Below, in pieces: positions 37,364 to 63,763 of a DNA stretch of 64,000 nt. The position numbers and the translations under genes were made by a program. The stretch comes from Aestuariimicrobium kwangyangense DSM 21549. Its GTDB lineage: Bacteria; Actinomycetota; Actinomycetes; Propionibacteriales; Propionibacteriaceae. The notes beneath the pieces are model-generated. The model worked only from the letters and a program-made list of their open reading frames with translations. It had not been told where the DNA came from and did not search any database. The stretch covers positions 1 to 64,000 of the forward strand of contig NZ_ATXE01000002.1 of NCBI RefSeq assembly GCF_000421525.1. Reading direction: 5' to 3'. The stretch's first letter is position 1; every line of letters begins with the position of its first letter.

Positions 37364-39208
37364 TCAGTCGACGACCCGAGCCGCACCCTTGTCGGCGGAC
37401 TGCGCGAACTTCGCGAAGATCTTCAGCGCCGGTGAGACCTCGCGTTGCCGGGTGGCGGGCTTCCATCCGTGGGCGTCGGCATGGGCGCGGCGCTCGGCCA
37501 GCACCTCGTCGGGCACGTCGAGGTGGATGCGCCGGTCGGGGATGGAGATCTCGATGATGTCCCCGTCCTCGACCAGACCGATGGTGCCCCCGGAAGCAGC
37601 TTCAGGTGAGACGTGGCCGATCGACAGGCCCGAGGAACCACCCGAGAATCGTCCGTCGGTGATCAGGGCGCACTTGGGGCCCAGCCCCACCCCCTTGAGG
37701 TACGACGTCGGGTACAGCATCTCCTGCATGCCCGGGCCACCCTTGGGTCCCTCGTAGCGGACGACGACCACGTCGCCCGGCTTGATCAGACCGCCGAGGA
37801 TCTGCTCGACCGCCTCGTCCTGGGACTCGGAGACCTTGGCCGTGCCGCGGAAGACCCACTGGTCCTCGGGCACCCCTGCGGTCTTGACGATGCAGCCGTC
37901 CTCGGCGAGGTTGCCGTAGAGCACGGCCAGTCCGCCGTCGGTGGTGTAGGCGTGCTCGACGGAGCGGATGCAGCCCGACTCCGCGTCGGTGTCGAGGCTG
38001 GCCCACCGGTTGGTGGACGAGAACGCCTGGGTGGTCCGCACCCCGCCCGGGGCTGCGTACCACAGGTCCATGGCCTCGTCGGTGGCCTTGCCGCCGCGCA
38101 GGTCCCAGGTGTCCATCCAGGACTGGAGGCTGGGGGAGTGGACCGCGTGGACGCCGGTGTCGAGCAGTCCCCCGCGGAACAGCTCACCCATGATGGCGGG
38201 GATGCCGCCGGCGCGGTGCACGTCCTCCATGTAGTAGTTGTGGGTGTTCGGGGCGACCTTGCACACACACGGCGTGTGCCGCGACAGCCGGTCGATGTCG
38301 GGCTGGGTGAAGTCCACCCCGGCTTCGTGGGCTGCTGCCAACAGGTGCAGCACGGTGTTGGTGGATCCGCCCATCGCGATGTCGACGGTCATGGCGTTCT
38401 CGAAAGCCGCCTTGGTGGCGATCGAGCGCGGCAGCACCGAGTCGTCGTCCTCGTCGTAGTAGCGCTTGGCCAGGTCGACGACCAGTCGTCCGGCGTTCTC
38501 GAAGAGGCCCTTGCGCTGCGCGGCGGTGGCCAGGGTCGACCCGTTGCCCGGCAGCGAGAGCCCGAGCACCTCGGTGAGGCAGTTCATCGAATTGGCGGTG
38601 AACATGCCCGAGCACGAGCCACAGGTGGGGCAGGCGTTGGCCTCGATCGTGTCGAGTTGGTTGTCGGGGACGCTCTCGTCGACGGCCTTGACCATGGCGT
38701 CGATCAGGTCGAGGCGGGTCTGCGCGGTCGACGTGGTGGGGTCGATCACGGCGGTGCCGGCCTCCATCGGGCCGCCCGAGACGAAGACGGCCGGGATGTT
38801 CAGTCGCAGCGCTGCGAGCAGCATGCCGGGAGTGATCTTGTCGCAGTTCGAGATGCACACCAGAGCGTCGGCGCAATGGGCGTTCACCATGTACTCCACC
38901 GAGTCGGCGATCACCTCTCGCGAGGGCAGTGAGTACAGCATGCCGGCGTGGCCCATGGCGATGCCGTCATCGACGGCGATGGTGTTGAACTCCTTGCCCA
39001 CACCTCCGGCCTCCGCCACCGCGCCGGCGACCAACTGGCCCATGTCCTTGAGGTGCACGTGTCCGGGGACGAACTGGGTGAAGGAGTTCGCGATCGCCAC
39101 GATCGGCTTGCCGAAGTCGTTGTCACCCATGCCCGTGGCACGCCACAGGGCTCGGGCGCCGGCCATGTTGCGGCCGTGGGTGGTGGTCTTGGAACGCAGT
39201 TCGGGCAT
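37364..39208 (-). CDS. ilvD: Dihydroxyacid dehydratase
   Basis: This 614-residue iron-sulfur enzyme dehydrates dihydroxyacids to 2-keto acids in valine and isoleucine synthesis. It shows [19 protein letters not shown], the cluster cysteines in [11 protein letters not shown] and [20 protein letters not shown], and near the end [23 protein letters not shown] 39208 has GGAGG 5 nt upstream. TAGGCT about 26 nt before it may be the promoter -10. It faces away from ilvBNC, which begins about 1.2 kb to the right on the other strand. Confidence 0.96.
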
Positions 39209-40050: not shown

Positions 40051-40262
40051 CAAGAAGAACGCTACGTCGTTGGTTGAACGATGAATTGGGTGGGGGTGGC
40101 ATATATCTCTGAGGACAGGCAACCCACAATGGCTGCGCGGCAGGTGTTCGTCCGGGCAGGTCCTCACGGCAGCTCATCAATGCTGGGGTCATGGCTGCGA
40201 AGGCCAGTGGGGCAGCCCGCGACGCGGGGGCGTCCCACGATGCGAGAGATGCGCCCGCCGCA

Positions 40263-40291
40263 TTGGTCCCCGATGGTCGCCGGGGTATGGT
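40263..40291 (+). promoter_or_regulatory. Promoter of the ilvBNC leader
   Basis: TTGGTC (40263-40268) and TATGGT (40286-40291) are separated by 17 nt, the canonical spacing. The leader-peptide GTG follows 6 nt after the -10, so the transcript should begin at the start codon. Confidence 0.7.
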
Positions 40292-40297
40292 GAAGCC

Positions 40298-40330
40298 GTG
40301 CGCACGAACCTCGTACTCCGCCAGCGCTGA
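40298..40330 (+). CDS. ilvB leader peptide ([10 protein letters not shown])
   Basis: A ten-codon ORF starts with GTG 6 nt after a good promoter and contains three regulatory codons in a row, CTC GTA CTC (Leu-Val-Leu). It resembles the short Arg/Leu/Val leader peptides known before ilvB in streptomycetes. Ribosome stalling on scarce Leu- or Val-tRNA would alter folding of the downstream RNA. The ORF is too short for normal gene finders, so the call rests on position, codons and the downstream structure. Confidence 0.75.
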
Positions 40331-40390
40331 GCCGACCAGCAGTCGGTCCAGCGCACCCTCGTATGCCCATGGAGGCAGCGGGGGTTTTTT
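40325..40390 (+). promoter_or_regulatory. Transcription attenuator of ilvBNC
   Basis: The last leader codon lies in a stem. CGCTG/CAGCG (40325-40329 with 40349-40353) encloses CCGAC/GTCGG (40332-40336 with 40342-40346) around a 5-nt loop. Further on, CCTC/GAGG-type pairing precedes GGGGG and T6 (40380-40390), an intrinsic-terminator-like tail. This is the layout of ribosome-mediated attenuation. The terminator stem is not perfectly clear by eye. Confidence 0.6.
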
Positions 40391-51372: not shown

Positions 51373-51429
51373 ACTGTAGCCAGCATCGCCGCAAGCCGGG
51401 TGCAGGTTCCAGCACCCGGGCGGTAGGTT
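51373..51429. promoter_or_regulatory. Divergent leuB/ilvE promoters with central palindrome
   Basis: CCGGGTGC (51396-51403) and GCACCCGG (51412-51419) form a perfect 8-bp inverted repeat with an 8-nt spacer. It overlaps the expected -35 positions of both promoters. The -10 boxes are TACAGT on the minus strand (51373-51378) for leuB and TAGGTT (51424-51429) for ilvE. Each ends 6-7 nt before its ATG. One regulator could therefore control both genes. Confidence 0.6.
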
Positions 51430-51435
51430 GCTGGC

Positions 51436-52581
51436 ATGGAGTTCACCCTGCCCACCGACCCCACGTTCTCCGATGCGGCCACGATCGCACGGGTGCACGC
51501 CAACCCCGGCTTCGGGGTGCACTTCACCGATCACATGTCGCGCGTGGAGTGGACGGCCGACCAGGGGTGGCACGACGCGGCCGTCGTCCCCTACGGGCCG
51601 ATCCAGCTCGACCCGGCGGCTGCGGTGCTCCACTACGCCCAGGAGATCTTCGAGGGCATGAAGGCCTACCGGCACGGCGACGGCTCCGTGTGGACCTTCA
51701 GGCCCGAGGCCAATGCAGCCCGCTACGCCCGCTCGGCGACCCGACTGCAGTTGCCCGTGCTCCCGGCCGCCGACTTCCTCGCGAGCATTGAGGCCCTCGT
51801 CCGACTCGACGAGCGCTGGGTGCCCGCTGGACTGGACGGGCGTTCCGACGACGAGGGGGTCGATGACGGGCGGTGCGAGCAGGGCCACAGCGGTGGCGGG
51901 CAGGGTGAACAGAGTCTGTACCTTCGTCCCTTCATGTTCGCGCGCGAGGCCTATCTGGGGGTTCGGGCCGCGAGAAGCGTCACCCACCTCGTGATCGCAT
52001 CGCCGGTCGGACCCTACTTCCCGGGGGGCGTCGAACCGGTCGACATCTGGCTCGAGGACGAGTTCTCCCGTGCAGCCCCCGGCGGCACCGGGGCCGCCAA
52101 GTGTGGCGGCAACTACGCGGCTTCCCTCCAGGCGCAGGCGAAGGCGGCCGAGCACGGCTGCTCCCAGGTGCTCTTCCTCGACGCCGTCGAGCACCGTTGG
52201 CTCGAGGAGCTCGGTGGCATGAACATCGTGCTGGTGAGCGCCGACGGTGAGTTGGTCACCCCCGAGACCTCGGGCACGATCCTCGAAGGGGTGACACGTT
52301 CCTCGGTCCTGCAGGTCGGACGCGACCTCGGCCTCACCCCGGTCGAACGCCCGGTGGCCTGGGCAGAGGTGGTCGCCGGTGTCGAGGCGGGCCGTTTCAC
52401 CGAGATCTTCGCGTGCGGCACGGCCGCCGTCATCACGCCGATCCGCGCCATCAGGTCGAACGGGGGAGAACTGGTGGTGCCCGGCAGCGGCGAGGTGTCG
52501 CTGCGCATCCGCGAGCGACTGGTCGACATCCAGTACGGACGCGCCGAGGACACCCATGGTTGGCTGTACCGGTTGGCCTGA
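51436..52581 (+). CDS. ilvE: Branched-chain amino acid aminotransferase
   Basis: This 381-residue fold-type IV PLP enzyme interconverts branched-chain keto and amino acids. [21 protein letters not shown], the PLP Lys in [30 protein letters not shown] and [14 protein letters not shown] are the family signatures. About 25 hydrophilic residues rich in Asp and Gly (near residues 137-160) interrupt the usual join between DERWVP and [10 protein letters not shown]. The ATG is 6 nt after the TAGGTT -10 box. cimA follows on the same strand. Confidence 0.95.
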
Positions 52582-52619
52582 GCGGCGTACCACACACTGG
52601 AACCCCGCACCCACTGGTT

Positions 52620-52646
52620 GGTTCGTGCCTCAGGATTGTACGAACC
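52620..52646 (+). promoter_or_regulatory. Inverted repeat in the ilvE-cimA gap
   Basis: GGTTCGT and ACGAACC form perfect 7-bp arms around a 13-nt loop, about 45 nt upstream of the cimA GTG. It may be a leader hairpin or operator. The rest of the 108-nt gap shows only the AGGAG ribosome-binding site at 52678. Confidence 0.4.
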
Positions 52647-52689: not shown

Positions 52690-54273
52690 GTGACGCTCAC
52701 CCCCGTCGCGCCCGAGTACCTGCACGTCTACGACACCACTCTTCGTGACGGCGCCCAGCAGGAGGGCTTGAGGCTCACCGTCTCCGACAAGCTGCGCATC
52801 GCGGGACTGTTGGACGAACTGGGTGTCACCCACATCGAGGGTGGCTGGCCGGGCGCCAATCCGAACGACACCGCCTTCTTCAAGGCGGCCGCCGAAGGCC
52901 TCGCCCTGCGCAACGCCACTCTGGTCGCCTTCGGATCCACCCGACGTCCCGGCGGGAAGGCGGCGGACGACCCCTTGGTGGCTGCCCTACGTGACGCCGG
53001 CACGAGTCACATCTGCCTGGTCGCAAAGTCCCACGACCGCCACGTGGAACAGGCCCTGCGTACGACCCTGGACGAGAACCTGGCGATGGTGCGCGACACC
53101 GTCAGCCACCTCGTCAACGAGGGCAAGCGGGTCTTCGTCGACTGCGAACACTTCTTCGACGGGTTCCGCCGCAACGAGGCCTACTCCCTCGAGGTGGTAC
53201 GGGCCGCTGCCGAGGCCGGCGCAGAGGTGGTCGTGCTGTGTGACACCAACGGCGGCATGCTGCCCAGCTGGATGGGCGACGTGGTCTCGTCCGCAGCGGC
53301 CATCGGGGTCGACCTCGGCATCCACTGCCACAACGACACGGGCTGCGCTGTCGCCAACTCGATGGCGGCCGTCGAGGCCGGCGCCATGCACGTGCAGGGC
53401 ACCATCAACGGCTACGGCGAGCGGACCGGCAATGCCGACCTCACCACGGTGGTGGCCAACCTGCAGCTCAAGTACGGGTGGGAACCCCTGGGCGGACGAG
53501 GGCTCGAGTCACTCACCCACATCAGCCACGCGATCGCCGAGATCGCCAACCAGCCGGCGCACGCGCGCCAGCCGTACGTGGGTCACTCGTCCTTCGCACA
53601 CAAGGCAGGACTTCACGCCTCAGCCATCAGGGTCGACCCCAATCTCTACCAGCACATCGACCCTGCTCTGGTGGGCAACGACATGCGCATGCTCATCTCA
53701 GACATGTCGGGTCGCGCCAACATCCAGATCAAGGCCGAGCAGTTGGGATTCGAACTCCCAGACCGTGACACCGCCGCAATGGTGGCCGACGTGGTCAAGG
53801 AACGGGAAGCGAACGGCTACTCCTACGAGGCCTCCGACGCCAGCTTCGAACTGCTGATGCGTGACCTGCTCGGCACCCTCGACAAGCCTTTCGAGGTGGG
53901 CGCGTGGGAGGTCAGCACCCGGCACCAGGCCTTGAACGTTCCCGGCGACTCCCAGGCCACCGTCACCCTCACCCTCGACGGTGAGACCAAGACCGTCACC
54001 TCGGACGGAAACGGCCCCGTCAACGCGCTCGACTCGGCACTCCGCGAGGTGGTGGCGCACGGGTTCGAGCAAGTGCTGCCCTACCGGCTCTCCGATTACC
54101 GGGTGCGCATCCTCGAGGCCGGCTTCGGAACCGACGCGGTCGTGCGGGTGCTGATCGACATGGGCACCACCGACCACACCTGGACCACGGTGGGTGTGGG
54201 CACCAACGTGATCGAGGCCTCCTGGGAGGCCTTGGCCGACGGTTACCTCTACGGACTCGTCAAGGGCTATTGA
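52690..54273 (+). CDS. cimA: (R)-citramalate synthase
   Basis: This 527-residue DRE-TIM metallolyase has VYDTTLRDGAQQEGLRLTV at the N-terminus, IEGGWPGANPNDTAFF, and the metal His pair in LGIHCHNDTGCAVANS. GTINGYGERTGNADL and VGHSSFAHKAGLHASA follow. A C-terminal LeuA-type allosteric domain begins near residue 410. This long form belongs to the pyruvate-using citramalate synthases and not to 2-isopropylmalate synthase; substrate choice is inferred from family. It would supply 2-ketobutyrate for isoleucine without threonine. GTG 52690 has AGGAG 8 nt upstream. Confidence 0.92.
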   Translation: MTLTPVAPEYLHVYDTTLRDGAQQEGLRLTVSDKLRIAGLLDELGVTHIEGGWPGANPNDTAFFKAAAEGLALRNATLVAFGSTRRPGGKAADDPLVAALRDAGTSHICLVAKSHDRHVEQALRTTLDENLAMVRDTVSHLVNEGKRVFVDCEHFFDGFRRNEAYSLEVVRAAAEAGAEVVVLCDTNGGMLPSWMGDVVSSAAAIGVDLGIHCHNDTGCAVANSMAAVEAGAMHVQGTINGYGERTGNADLTTVVANLQLKYGWEPLGGRGLESLTHISHAIAEIANQPAHARQPYVGHSSFAHKAGLHASAIRVDPNLYQHIDPALVGNDMRMLISDMSGRANIQIKAEQLGFELPDRDTAAMVADVVKEREANGYSYEASDASFELLMRDLLGTLDKPFEVGAWEVSTRHQALNVPGDSQATVTLTLDGETKTVTSDGNGPVNALDSALREVVAHGFEQVLPYRLSDYRVRILEAGFGTDAVVRVLIDMGTTDHTWTTVGVGTNVIEASWEALADGYLYGLVKGY

Positions 54274-60875: not shown

Positions 60876-61601
60876 TCACTCGGCCGAGGCTGCCCTGCGC
60901 AGGACCTCCGAGAGCCGCTCGGCGGCGCTCATCACGGCGGCGGCGTGCAGTCGTCCCGGCTGGCGACCCAGACGTTCGATCGGACCCGACACCGACAGTG
61001 CGGCGATCACCTTGCCGGAAGGCGAGCGGACGGGCGCGCTGACCGAGGCGACCCCCGGCTCGCGTTCGGCGACGGAGTGCGCCCAGCCACGTCGACGCAC
61101 CGACGCCAGAGCCACTGCCGAGAAGTTCGAGGACGACAGGCCGCGCTGCACCCGCTCCGGCTCCTCCCAGGCGAGCAGCACCTGGGCGGCGGAGCCAGCT
61201 GACATCGTCAACTGGGTGCCCACCGGGATGGTGTCGCGCAGTCCCGAGGGACGCTCGGCCGCCGCAGCACACACGCGGAACTCGCCCTGCCTGCGGAACA
61301 GCTGGGCGGACTCACCGGTGATGTCGCGAAGCCGCGCGAGAATGGGGCCGGCGGTGGCCAGCAATCGGTCCTCGCCCGCGGCGGAGGCGAGTTCACCCAG
61401 ACGCGGACCCAACACGAAACGGCCCTGCAGGTCGCGTCCCACCAAGCGGTGGTGTTCGAGCGCCACGGCCAGGCGATGGGCTGTCGGTCGGGCCAGTCCG
61501 GTCGCCGTGACGAGTCCCGCCAGGGTGGTCGGTCCGGATTCGAGTGCGGTGAGTACAAGGGCGGCTTTGTCGAGCACGCCCACGCCACTGGTGTCGTCCA
61601 T
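60876..61601 (-). CDS. IclR-family regulator of leuCD (LtbR/NdgR-like)
   Basis: This 241-residue protein has an N-terminal winged HTH (LDKAALVLTALESGPTTLAGLVTATGLARPTAHRL) and a C-terminal IclR effector domain (DTIPVGTQLTMSAGSAAQVLLAW, APVRSPSGKVIAALSVSGP). It is divergent from leuC, the place of Rv2989 in M. tuberculosis, LtbR in C. glutamicum and NdgR in Streptomyces. Those proteins control leuCD and other amino acid genes. ATG 61601 is 8 nt after TGTAAT on this strand (-35 TTGCAT, 16 nt apart), so it should be leaderless. The symbol is not assigned because orthology is only inferred. Confidence 0.9.
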   Translation of the reverse strand: MDDTSGVGVLDKAALVLTALESGPTTLAGLVTATGLARPTAHRLAVALEHHRLVGRDLQGRFVLGPRLGELASAAGEDRLLATAGPILARLRDITGESAQLFRRQGEFRVCAAAAERPSGLRDTIPVGTQLTMSAGSAAQVLLAWEEPERVQRGLSSSNFSAVALASVRRRGWAHSVAEREPGVASVSAPVRSPSGKVIAALSVSGPIERLGRQPGRLHAAAVMSAAERLSEVLRRAASAE

Positions 61602-61609
61602 GATTTGAG

Positions 61610-61647
61610 ATTACATGTCCGCATTTTGGAAATGCAAGCGCTAGAGT
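61610..61647. promoter_or_regulatory. Divergent iclR/leuC promoter region with palindrome
   Basis: GCATTT-TGG-AAATGC (61621-61635) is a perfect palindrome with a 3-nt centre. It covers the -35 of the regulator's own promoter (TTGCAT 61637-61632, TGTAAT 61615-61610 on the minus strand). It lies just upstream of TAGAGT (61642-61647), the probable leuC -10. It is the best candidate for the regulator's binding site. A small GGACTC/GAGTCC hairpin (61649-61669) follows in the leuC leader. Confidence 0.65.
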
Positions 61648-61712
61648 TGGACTCCTCGGCGAAGAGTCCTGCTTCGTCGCGAGCCAGTCAGAGACCCACA
61701 TCGAGGTGTTGA

Positions 61713-63149
61713 ATGCCCACCACTGCCAGTGGTCCGACCACCCTGTCCGACAAGGTCTGGGACGCCCACGTCGTCCGTCAGGCCGCGGGTGAGCCCGACC
61801 TGTTGTTCATCGACCTGCACCTCGTGCACGAGGTCACCAGCCCGCAGGCCTTCGCCGGACTCAAGCTCGCGGGACGCCCCGTGCGCCGGCCCGACCTGAC
61901 CCTGGCCACCGAGGACCACAACACCCCGACGCTCGACATCGATCGGCCCATCGCCGACCCGGTCAGCCGCACCCAGGTCGACACCCTGCGCAAGAACGCT
62001 GCCGAGTTCGGGATCCGCATCCATTCCTTGGGTGACAAGGACCAGGGCGTGGTCCACATCATCGGTCCCCAGTTGGGCATCACCCAGCCGGGCATGACCA
62101 TCGTGTGTGGCGACTCCCACACCTCCACCCACGGCGCCTTCGGGGCACTGGCCTTCGGCATCGGCACCTCCGAGGTCGAGCACGTCCTGGCCACCCAGAC
62201 GCTGCCGCAGGCTCGTCCGAAGACCATGGCCGTCAACATCAACGGTGACCTGCCCGCCGGTGTGACCGCCAAGGATGTCGTGCTGGCACTGATCGCCAAG
62301 GTCGGCACCGGCGGCGGCCAGGGCTACATCGTGGAGTACCGCGGCACGACCATCGAGAACCTGTCGATGGAGGGTCGCATGACCATCTGCAACATGTCGA
62401 TCGAGTGGGGAGCCAAGGCGGGCATGATCGCCCCCGACCAGGCCACCTTCGACTACATCAAGGGCCGTCCGCATGCTCCCGAGGGTGAGCAGTGGGACGC
62501 CGCGGTCGAGTACTGGAAGACGCTGCGCAGTGACGACGACGCCGTGTTCGACCGCGAGGTGGACATCGACGCCACCCAGCTCACCCCGTTCGTGACCTGG
62601 GGCACCAACCCCGGCCAGGGAGTGCCGCTCGGGGCAGTCGTCCCCACCCCCAGCGACTTCACCGACGAGGTCGACCGCACCGCCGCCGAGAAGGCCCTGC
62701 AGTACATGGGCTTGACGGCGGGCACGCCGATGCGTGAGATCGCCGTCGACACCGTCTTCCTGGGATCCTGCACCAACGGACGCATCGAGGACCTCCGCCT
62801 CGCGGCCAGCGTGCTGCAGGGCAACCGGATCGCCGACTCGGTGCGCATGCTGGTGGTTCCCGGTTCAGCCCGGGTACGGCTGCAGGCCGAGATCGAGGGA
62901 CTCGACAAGGTCTTCCTCGAGGCGGGTGCCGAGTGGCGCGCCGCCGGCTGCTCCATGTGCCTGGGCATGAACCCCGACCAGTTGGCTCCCGGGGAGCGGG
63001 CCGCGTCGACCTCGAACCGCAACTTCGAGGGCAGGCAGGGCAAGGGTGGACGTACCCACCTGGTCTCGCCCGCCGTCGCGGCCGCCACCGCCATCACCGG
63101 ACACCTGTCCGCACCCCAAGACCTCATCCCGGCCGAACAGAAGGGCTGA
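61713..63149 (+). CDS. leuC: 3-isopropylmalate dehydratase large subunit
   Basis: This 478-residue aconitase-family subunit has [37 protein letters not shown], and the three [4Fe-4S] cysteines in [13 protein letters not shown] and [15 protein letters not shown]. With LeuD it isomerises isopropylmalate and also citramalate. ATG 61713 follows GAGG at 61703. leuD begins 5 nt after its stop. Confidence 0.96.
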
Positions 63150-63154
63150 TCACC

Positions 63155-63763
63155 ATGGACAAGTTCTCCACCCACATCGGTGTGCCCGTGCCGCTGCGAC
63201 GCAGCAACGTCGACACCGACCAGATCATCCCTGCCGTCTACCTCAAGCGGATCACCCGCGACGGGTTCGAGGACGGGCTGTTCTCGGCATGGCGCAACGA
63301 CCCCGACTTCGTGCTCAACCAGGAGGCGTACCGGGCGGGGACGATCCTGATCCCGGGCCCCGAGTTCGGCACGGGTTCATCGCGTGAGCACGCGGTCTGG
63401 GCCCTGCAGAACTACGGCTTCAAGGTGGTCATCGGCAGCCGCTTCGGTGACATCTTCCGCAACAACTCGGGCAAGGCCGGCTTGTTGGTGGCGCTCGTCG
63501 AGCAGGACGTCGTCGAGCAGTTGTGGGACTGGGTCGACGCCCACCCGGGCACCGCCATCGAGGTGTCGCTGGAGGATCGGGTGATCAGCCTGCCCGACGG
63601 CACGCGTCACGGGTTCACGATCGACGACTTCACCCGGCAGCGGTTGCTCGAGGGGCTCGACGACATCTCGATGACGCTGCAGCACTCCGACGAGATCGCT
63701 GCCTACGAGGCCTCACGCCCGAGCTTCAAGCCGGCCACCCTGCCGGTGCGCACCGCGGACTGA
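63155..63763 (+). CDS. leuD: 3-isopropylmalate dehydratase small subunit
   Basis: This 202-residue swivelling-domain partner of LeuC has [20 protein letters not shown], the active-site Ser-Arg in [17 protein letters not shown], and [27 protein letters not shown] 63155 is chosen because it starts just after leuC and matches the family N-terminus; the longer reading from 62933 overlaps leuC. A hairpin follows its stop. Confidence 0.96.

Follow-up and report, generated by a model that had tools for sequence, protein, structure and literature searches.

The closest described systems are NdgR of Streptomyces coelicolor and LtbR of Corynebacterium glutamicum. NdgR is described as an IclR-family regulator that is encoded divergently from leuCD and recognizes a 15-bp imperfect palindrome (PMC4340878). 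ChIP-seq in S. coelicolor detected NdgR at the ndgR-leuC region and at ilvB, and gave the motif [GT]T[CT]CAC[CA][CTA][TC][GC][TC]GGAC (PMC4340878). The target list reported there also holds cysteine and methionine genes, ilvD and leuB-ilvE; cimA is absent from it, as far as the available part of that report extends (PMC4340878). LtbR is an IclR-type regulator whose gene lies upstream of leuCD, with a consensus in the promoter -10 region, and it additionally represses trp genes, according to the available part of a review (PMC11802643). The two regulators are reported to differ in sign: LtbR represses leuCD (PMC11802643), whereas NdgR of S. coelicolor is described as activating leuCD (PMC10331944). 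A common motif, KTYCRSMWYSYGRRM, has been compiled for NdgR and LtbR, and the LtbR motif is compared here solely as merged into it (PMC8222616).

A locus of similar layout is found in the window, the whole stretch of 64,000 nucleotides of Aestuariimicrobium kwangyangense DSM 21549 that was analysed. The gene iclR (60876..61601, minus strand) encodes a product of 241 amino acids, which in a profile search matched PF09339 (IclR helix-turn-helix; 33.9 bits, cut-off 22) and PF01614 (IclR C-terminal; 77 bits, cut-off 24), while no NCBIfam model reached its cut-off for this product. The genes leuC (61713..63149, plus strand) and leuD (63155..63763, plus strand) encode the large and small subunits of 3-isopropylmalate dehydratase, and match TIGR00170 and TIGR00171 over cut-off, respectively. 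The genes iclR and leuCD are divergent and are separated by an intergenic region of 111 bp. Homologues of iclR were matched in 57 of 57 genomes, the window's own genome counted. The iclR product is 77-78% identical to those of 11 Streptomycetaceae loci among the best 80 of 510 contigs, and these loci also adjoin leuC. Judged from its sequence and gene order, the window regulator is an IclR-family protein, probably of the NdgR/LtbR type, divergent from leuCD like NdgR and LtbR. A search of the plasmid collection with the iclR-leuC intergenic region gave no match. At Rfam gathering scores, the whole window yielded only rRNA and two tRNAs, and neither iclR-leuC nor the ilvB leader gave a hit.

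Conservation between the two genes was assessed, without the locus of the window itself (L002), in regions upstream of iclR orthologues from 29 loci (L003-L031) and from the 80 best of 510 contigs (L032-L111). With the window, these gave 110 upstream sequences, 104 of them distinct over the first 60 bases. Removal of the window and of L029, whose upstream region is visibly non-homologous, left 102 relatives; in two loci (L052 and L098) the match started a codon too late, and these were shifted into register. Counted from the iclR start codon, these relatives, which are uneven across lineages and not independent, share a gap-free footprint: conservation is found at columns 7-22 and 28-38, is low in the centre (columns 23-27) and drops from column 39 onwards. 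The footprint contains a conserved inverted repeat, TCTCR-N5-TGRRA, at columns 18-32, and its distance to the iclR start is fixed. The corresponding sequence in the window is GTCCG-CATTT-TGGAA (GTCCGCATTTTGGAA; 61617..61631, centre 61624). Columns 18/32 and 21/29 are complementary in 92% and 96% of the relatives, respectively, and each of the remaining five pairs in 11-46%; with just two of seven pairs complementary in most relatives, the operator is an imperfect palindrome. The top dyad axes scored 0.63 each, one at 25.0 (the principal operator) and one at 14.5 (the left half of the operator with the next box). The initial annotation had proposed a comparison with known LtbR/NdgR sites, and this comparison succeeds at 61617-61631, where GTCCGCATTTTGGAA matches 14 of the 15 positions of KTYCRSMWYSYGRRM, the exception being a T instead of S at position 10; the exact KTYCRSMWYSYGRRM pattern has no match at these coordinates. 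The window's copy is a weak one, carrying G where 100 of the 102 relatives carry T, and only three of the 102 score lower.

The segment 61617-61631 is thus a deeply conserved, predicted operator of the NdgR/LtbR type, a known kind of switch. It is very probably the operator of the adjacent regulator, through which iclR and likely leuCD would be repressed, with ilvB and cimA as further predicted targets. A dimer of the regulator would occupy the imperfect repeat GTCCG-N5-TGGAA of 15 bp. The operator register, its conservation, the promoter geometry and the ilvB and cimA sites are results of computation. What is gained is an operator that extends across genera with a fixed promoter geometry, a corrected register and the predicted further targets.

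The iclR promoter consists of a -35 box TTGCAT (61632..61637, minus strand) and a -10 box TAATCT (61608..61613, minus strand), the latter 6 nt before the ATG. The -35 box reads TTGCAT or TTGCGT in 86 of the 102 relatives. The -10 box is CAGTAT in 48 of them, CAATAT in 21, GAGTAT in seven, TAATCT in six and TAGTCT in six, with rarer forms in the remainder. The spacer is 17 in 100 of the 102 relatives; the window, with one extra base between the operator and the -35 box, has 18. Since the distance from promoter to start codon is locked, a leaderless iclR transcript is supported, and we infer one by position. The initial annotation had called this promoter strong and leaderless; the leaderless part agrees with the position of the boxes, but the hexamers are far from consensus, and a consensus scan of 61560-61760 found no sigma-70 promoter reaching 9 of 12 matches, so that a strong promoter is unsupported. 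A regulator bound at 61617-61631 would sit between the -35 and -10 boxes of iclR and would repress its own gene; autorepression is likely, as the operator occupies the space between the boxes, and it follows from position only.

The same geometry raises the possibility that the core promoter explains the conserved columns without any regulator site. The -10 and -35 boxes do account for columns 9-14 and 33-38, which could be conserved for these boxes alone. However, the information content of columns 18-21 and 28-32, which lie inside the spacer, is 0.3-1.9 bits per column and exceeds 1.5 in seven of these nine. Moreover, a 15-mer of the same type occurs before ilvB and cimA, at ilvB outside any -10/-35 spacer. 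A promoter without an operator is therefore considered highly improbable, and the conserved spacer columns are best read as the regulator's site.

The initial annotation had placed the operator at the palindrome GCATTT-TGG-AAATGC (GCATTTTGGAAATGC; 61621..61635), recognized through its six-base arms. This palindrome is present, has perfect 6-bp arms, lies correctly between both promoters and is the sole match at up to one mismatch in the genome (2.99 Mb searched). Taken simply as an inverted repeat it has little significance: when the 111-bp region was shuffled 1000 times with dinucleotides preserved, 2.2% of the shuffles held a perfect 6-bp inverted repeat with a spacer of exactly 3, and 19.5% held at least one with a spacer of 0-10, so that a repeat of this general kind is not rare. 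It is not conserved as a palindrome, its arm pairs being complementary in just 7-36% of the 102 relatives, and its dyad axis (29.0) is outside the 12 best axes tested. With the matrix derived from the relatives, the score is -34 for its 15-mer and 8.2 for the one four bases further left; the palindrome is thus a poor search motif. The right arm (61630-61635) is explained by the last two bases of the operator and, on the opposite strand, four bases of the iclR -35 box; the noted overlap of the palindrome with this box is accordingly real, four bases being shared with TTGCAT (61637-61632, minus strand). On the arm-pair and matrix values the palindrome was rejected as the operator, and there is very little chance that it is the unit recognized. 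What was wrong was the register, the conserved site lying four bases to the left at 61617-61631 and the exact palindrome being for the most part coincidental; in that shifted register, the idea of one LtbR/NdgR-type operator common to the divergent iclR and leuC promoter region is supported. The site worth probing for the regulator is hence 61617-61631 rather than 61621-61635.

The operator found here is related to the published Streptomyces site and is not the same. The NdgR ChIP motif approximates GTCCA-N5-TGGAC (PMC4340878), whereas TCTCR-N5-TGRRA is conserved in the present set. The instance published for the ndgR-leuC peak is GTCCAGAACGCCGAC (PMC4340878). In the 11 Streptomycetaceae loci, the 800 bases counted from the ndgR start hold no close match to this sequence (best 11 of 15), and nine of the loci (L100-L103, L105-L107, L109 and L110) carry TCTCACTCTGTGAAA at the operator place. 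Judged from these 11 loci, the in vivo NdgR site at ndgR-leuC in Streptomyces may be misassigned. Farther downstream, seven of the 11 loci contain TTGnnA-N17-(C/T)ACAAC, which may be their leuC promoter.

A symmetric matrix constructed from the operators of the 102 relatives, the window excluded, was scanned over the 64 kb. The top 15-mers begin at 40233 (score 16.6), 38839 (11.5), 61596 (about 11.3), 52588 (11.3), 53756 (10.9) and 61617 (8.2). The matches at 38839 (inside ilvD) and 53756 (inside cimA) are intragenic and look like background. A first-order random model predicts about 15 sites of at least 8 and about four of at least 11 per 64 kb, and the window has six and four, respectively; sites of at least 16 were found in none of 12 random sequences, and the window has one. 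As the window is unenriched overall, position and homology carry the case, and the weaker matches count only by their position.

The best 15-mer of the window is the predicted operator TCCCACGATGCGAGA before ilvB (40233..40247, centre 40240). It is followed 15 nt downstream by the leader promoter TTGGTC-N17-TATGGT (40263..40291, plus strand). A putative ilvB leader peptide (12 residues and a stop; 40298..40330, plus strand), proposed on sequence and fold, would be leaderless by position, its GTG lying 58 bp after the site centre and 6 nt after TATGGT. Downstream of the peptide, the leader (40298-40390) has a terminator-like hairpin, with six T at 40385-40390. The peptide contains Leu-Val-Leu codons, and the whole leader looks like a typical attenuator. 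In S. lividans, attenuation with an ilvL leader peptide that is itself leaderless has been described (PMC8079986).

Of 25 loci, 19 have a site scoring at least 8 in the 500 bp before the matched part of ilvB (shuffles expect about 3.9; coding control 2 of 25), and 12 have one of at least 11 (1.2 expected); the set consists of 30 TIGR00118 loci, the window's included, minus four lower-scoring paralogs (L138-L141) and a fragment (L137). Measured to the best TTGACA-like hexamer, 12 of the 19 sites end 16 nt and two of the 19 (the window included) 15 nt before a -35-like hexamer, and five loci (L112, L115, L120, L129 and L132) gave other gaps; in L115, an equal-scoring site at -242 may be the real one. 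Sites 15-16 nt upstream of the -35 box, with centres near -60, are in an activator position. The regulator would bind upstream of the -35 box of the ilvB leader, probably as an activator, and we infer the sign of this control from the location that suggests it. The initial annotation had listed ilvB and cimA among possible targets, and the homologous loci agree with it for both genes.

The gene cimA (52690..54273, plus strand) encodes citramalate synthase (TIGR00977, 594 bits, cut-off 450) and is preceded by the predicted operator TACCACACACTGGAA (52588..52602, score 11.3). A set of 30 loci that includes the window's own was scanned over the 300 bp before the matched part of cimA: 15 loci have a site of at least 8 (shuffles expect about 2.5; coding control 1 of 30), and 12 have one of at least 11, against 0.65 expected. 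The regulator would also bind upstream of cimA, and its action at ilvB and cimA would tie leucine, valine and isoleucine synthesis together. An inverted repeat, GGTTCGT ... ACGAACC (52620-52646), lies between the predicted cimA operator and cimA.

Two targets in the available part of the NdgR list, ilvD and leuB-ilvE (PMC4340878), found little or no support here. No site was found before ilvD (best score 0.3), nor before the presumed leuA (best score -1.0). The 70-bp leuB-ilvE intergenic region contains an exact KTYCRSMWYSYGRRM match at 51407-51421, and its best score with the relatives' matrix is a weak 3.3. Exact KTYCRSMWYSYGRRM occurs 38 times genome-wide, against 52 times for a reversed control, and such a search is uninformative by itself. 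Only three of 30 ilvE loci reached 8, the starts of partial matches being placed by an approximate shift, and the leuB-ilvE site is unsupported as a target. The gene ilvE looks leaderless, with TAGGTT six nt before the ATG (51424-51436), and many ilvE loci, as judged by eye, have similar TAnnnT boxes a short way before the start.

A possible tandem site, GTCCA-TGATT-TGAGA (GTCCATGATTTGAGA; 61596..61610, centre 61603), lies over the iclR start codon. Its score of about 11.3 is above that of 98 of the 102 relatives at the same position, where the median is 5.1 and 31 of 102 reach at least 8; non-coding offsets other than this one average -5 or lower. The window contrasts in this respect, its main site being unusually weak and its left site unusually good. 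Tandem dimer sites are described for the IclR family, and the window resembles them in that its centres are 21 bp apart, inside the described 18-22 nt, and in that its half-sites alternate in direction as in three-box sites, within what the available part of the source covers (PMC8222616). A second dimer might accordingly bind at 61596-61610, on the same face of the DNA and two helical turns away. Unlike the described tandem sites (PMC8222616), the putative left site overlaps the start codon and the -10 box: its left half consists of the start codon and a codon for Asp that is GAC in all 102 relatives, and its right half touches the -10 box. Because it is confounded by the start codon, the invariant Asp codon and the -10 box, the second site is left as possible. 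At ilvB, partners at 21 bp scoring at least 3 were few (two of 19 loci at -21 and one of 19 at +21), and a general tandem rule is unsupported at ilvB and cimA.

For leuC, the initial annotation had placed a -10 box just downstream of the palindrome. The candidate TAGAGT (61642..61647, plus strand) is credible: 40 of the 102 relatives have a TAnnnT that starts at the matching place (columns 40-46), and each of seven control stretches with the same width has one in no more than two of the 102 (range 0-2). The candidate box has no recognizable -35 box. By lineage, 14 of 39 Propionibacteriaceae and 26 of 38 Nocardioidaceae have the box, and none of 11 Kribbella, 10 Streptomycetaceae or four Micrococcales does, which makes 40 of 77 in the first two groups and 0 of 25 in the others; these lineages are our own assignments, in which loci without a stated lineage and three class- or order-level MAGs were counted as Propionibacteriaceae by default, except that seven loci were placed in Kribbella and one class- or order-level MAG in Nocardioidaceae. 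A second perfect inverted repeat, GGACTC-N9-GAGTCC (61649-61669), stands just 3' of the candidate box and is possibly due to chance.

The centre of the operator lies about 30 bp before the expected leuC start (about 61654), over the place of the -35 box. A bound regulator would cover this place and would most likely repress leuCD, as LtbR does (PMC11802643); repression of leuC by the operator-bound regulator is plausible. The simultaneous repression of both genes claimed initially is nevertheless uncertain: autorepression is deduced from position only, and the published orthologues disagree on leuCD. The same operator could instead activate leuC, as reported for NdgR in Streptomyces (PMC10331944), and the leuC promoter without a recognizable -35 box and the activator geometry at ilvB are in keeping with this. 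The candidate -10 box, however, puts the operator centre near -30, and in Streptomycetaceae, which have no such box, leuC presumably starts elsewhere; this lineage argument is not clean, because 25 of the 39 Propionibacteriaceae also have no such box. Activation of leuC in the window is rather unlikely, and repression is the preferred reading. Regulator binding and the effector, expected to be a leucine-pathway signal, belong to the same predicted scheme as the sign of regulation and the transcript starts.

A wider reading is offered tentatively, in which one operator acts with two signs, occluding iclR and, in many Propionibacteriaceae and Nocardioidaceae, leuC, and activating ilvB from about -60, with cimA as an added target. 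If this is true, the lineage-specific leuC -10 box would explain why LtbR appears as a repressor and NdgR as an activator of leuCD, and the addition of cimA would link leucine control to isoleucine synthesis through citramalate. Three Propionibacterium-like loci (L025, L051 and L089) have the start of leuC at column 53-54, some 15 bases beyond the iclR -35 box, and leuC too may be near-leaderless there.
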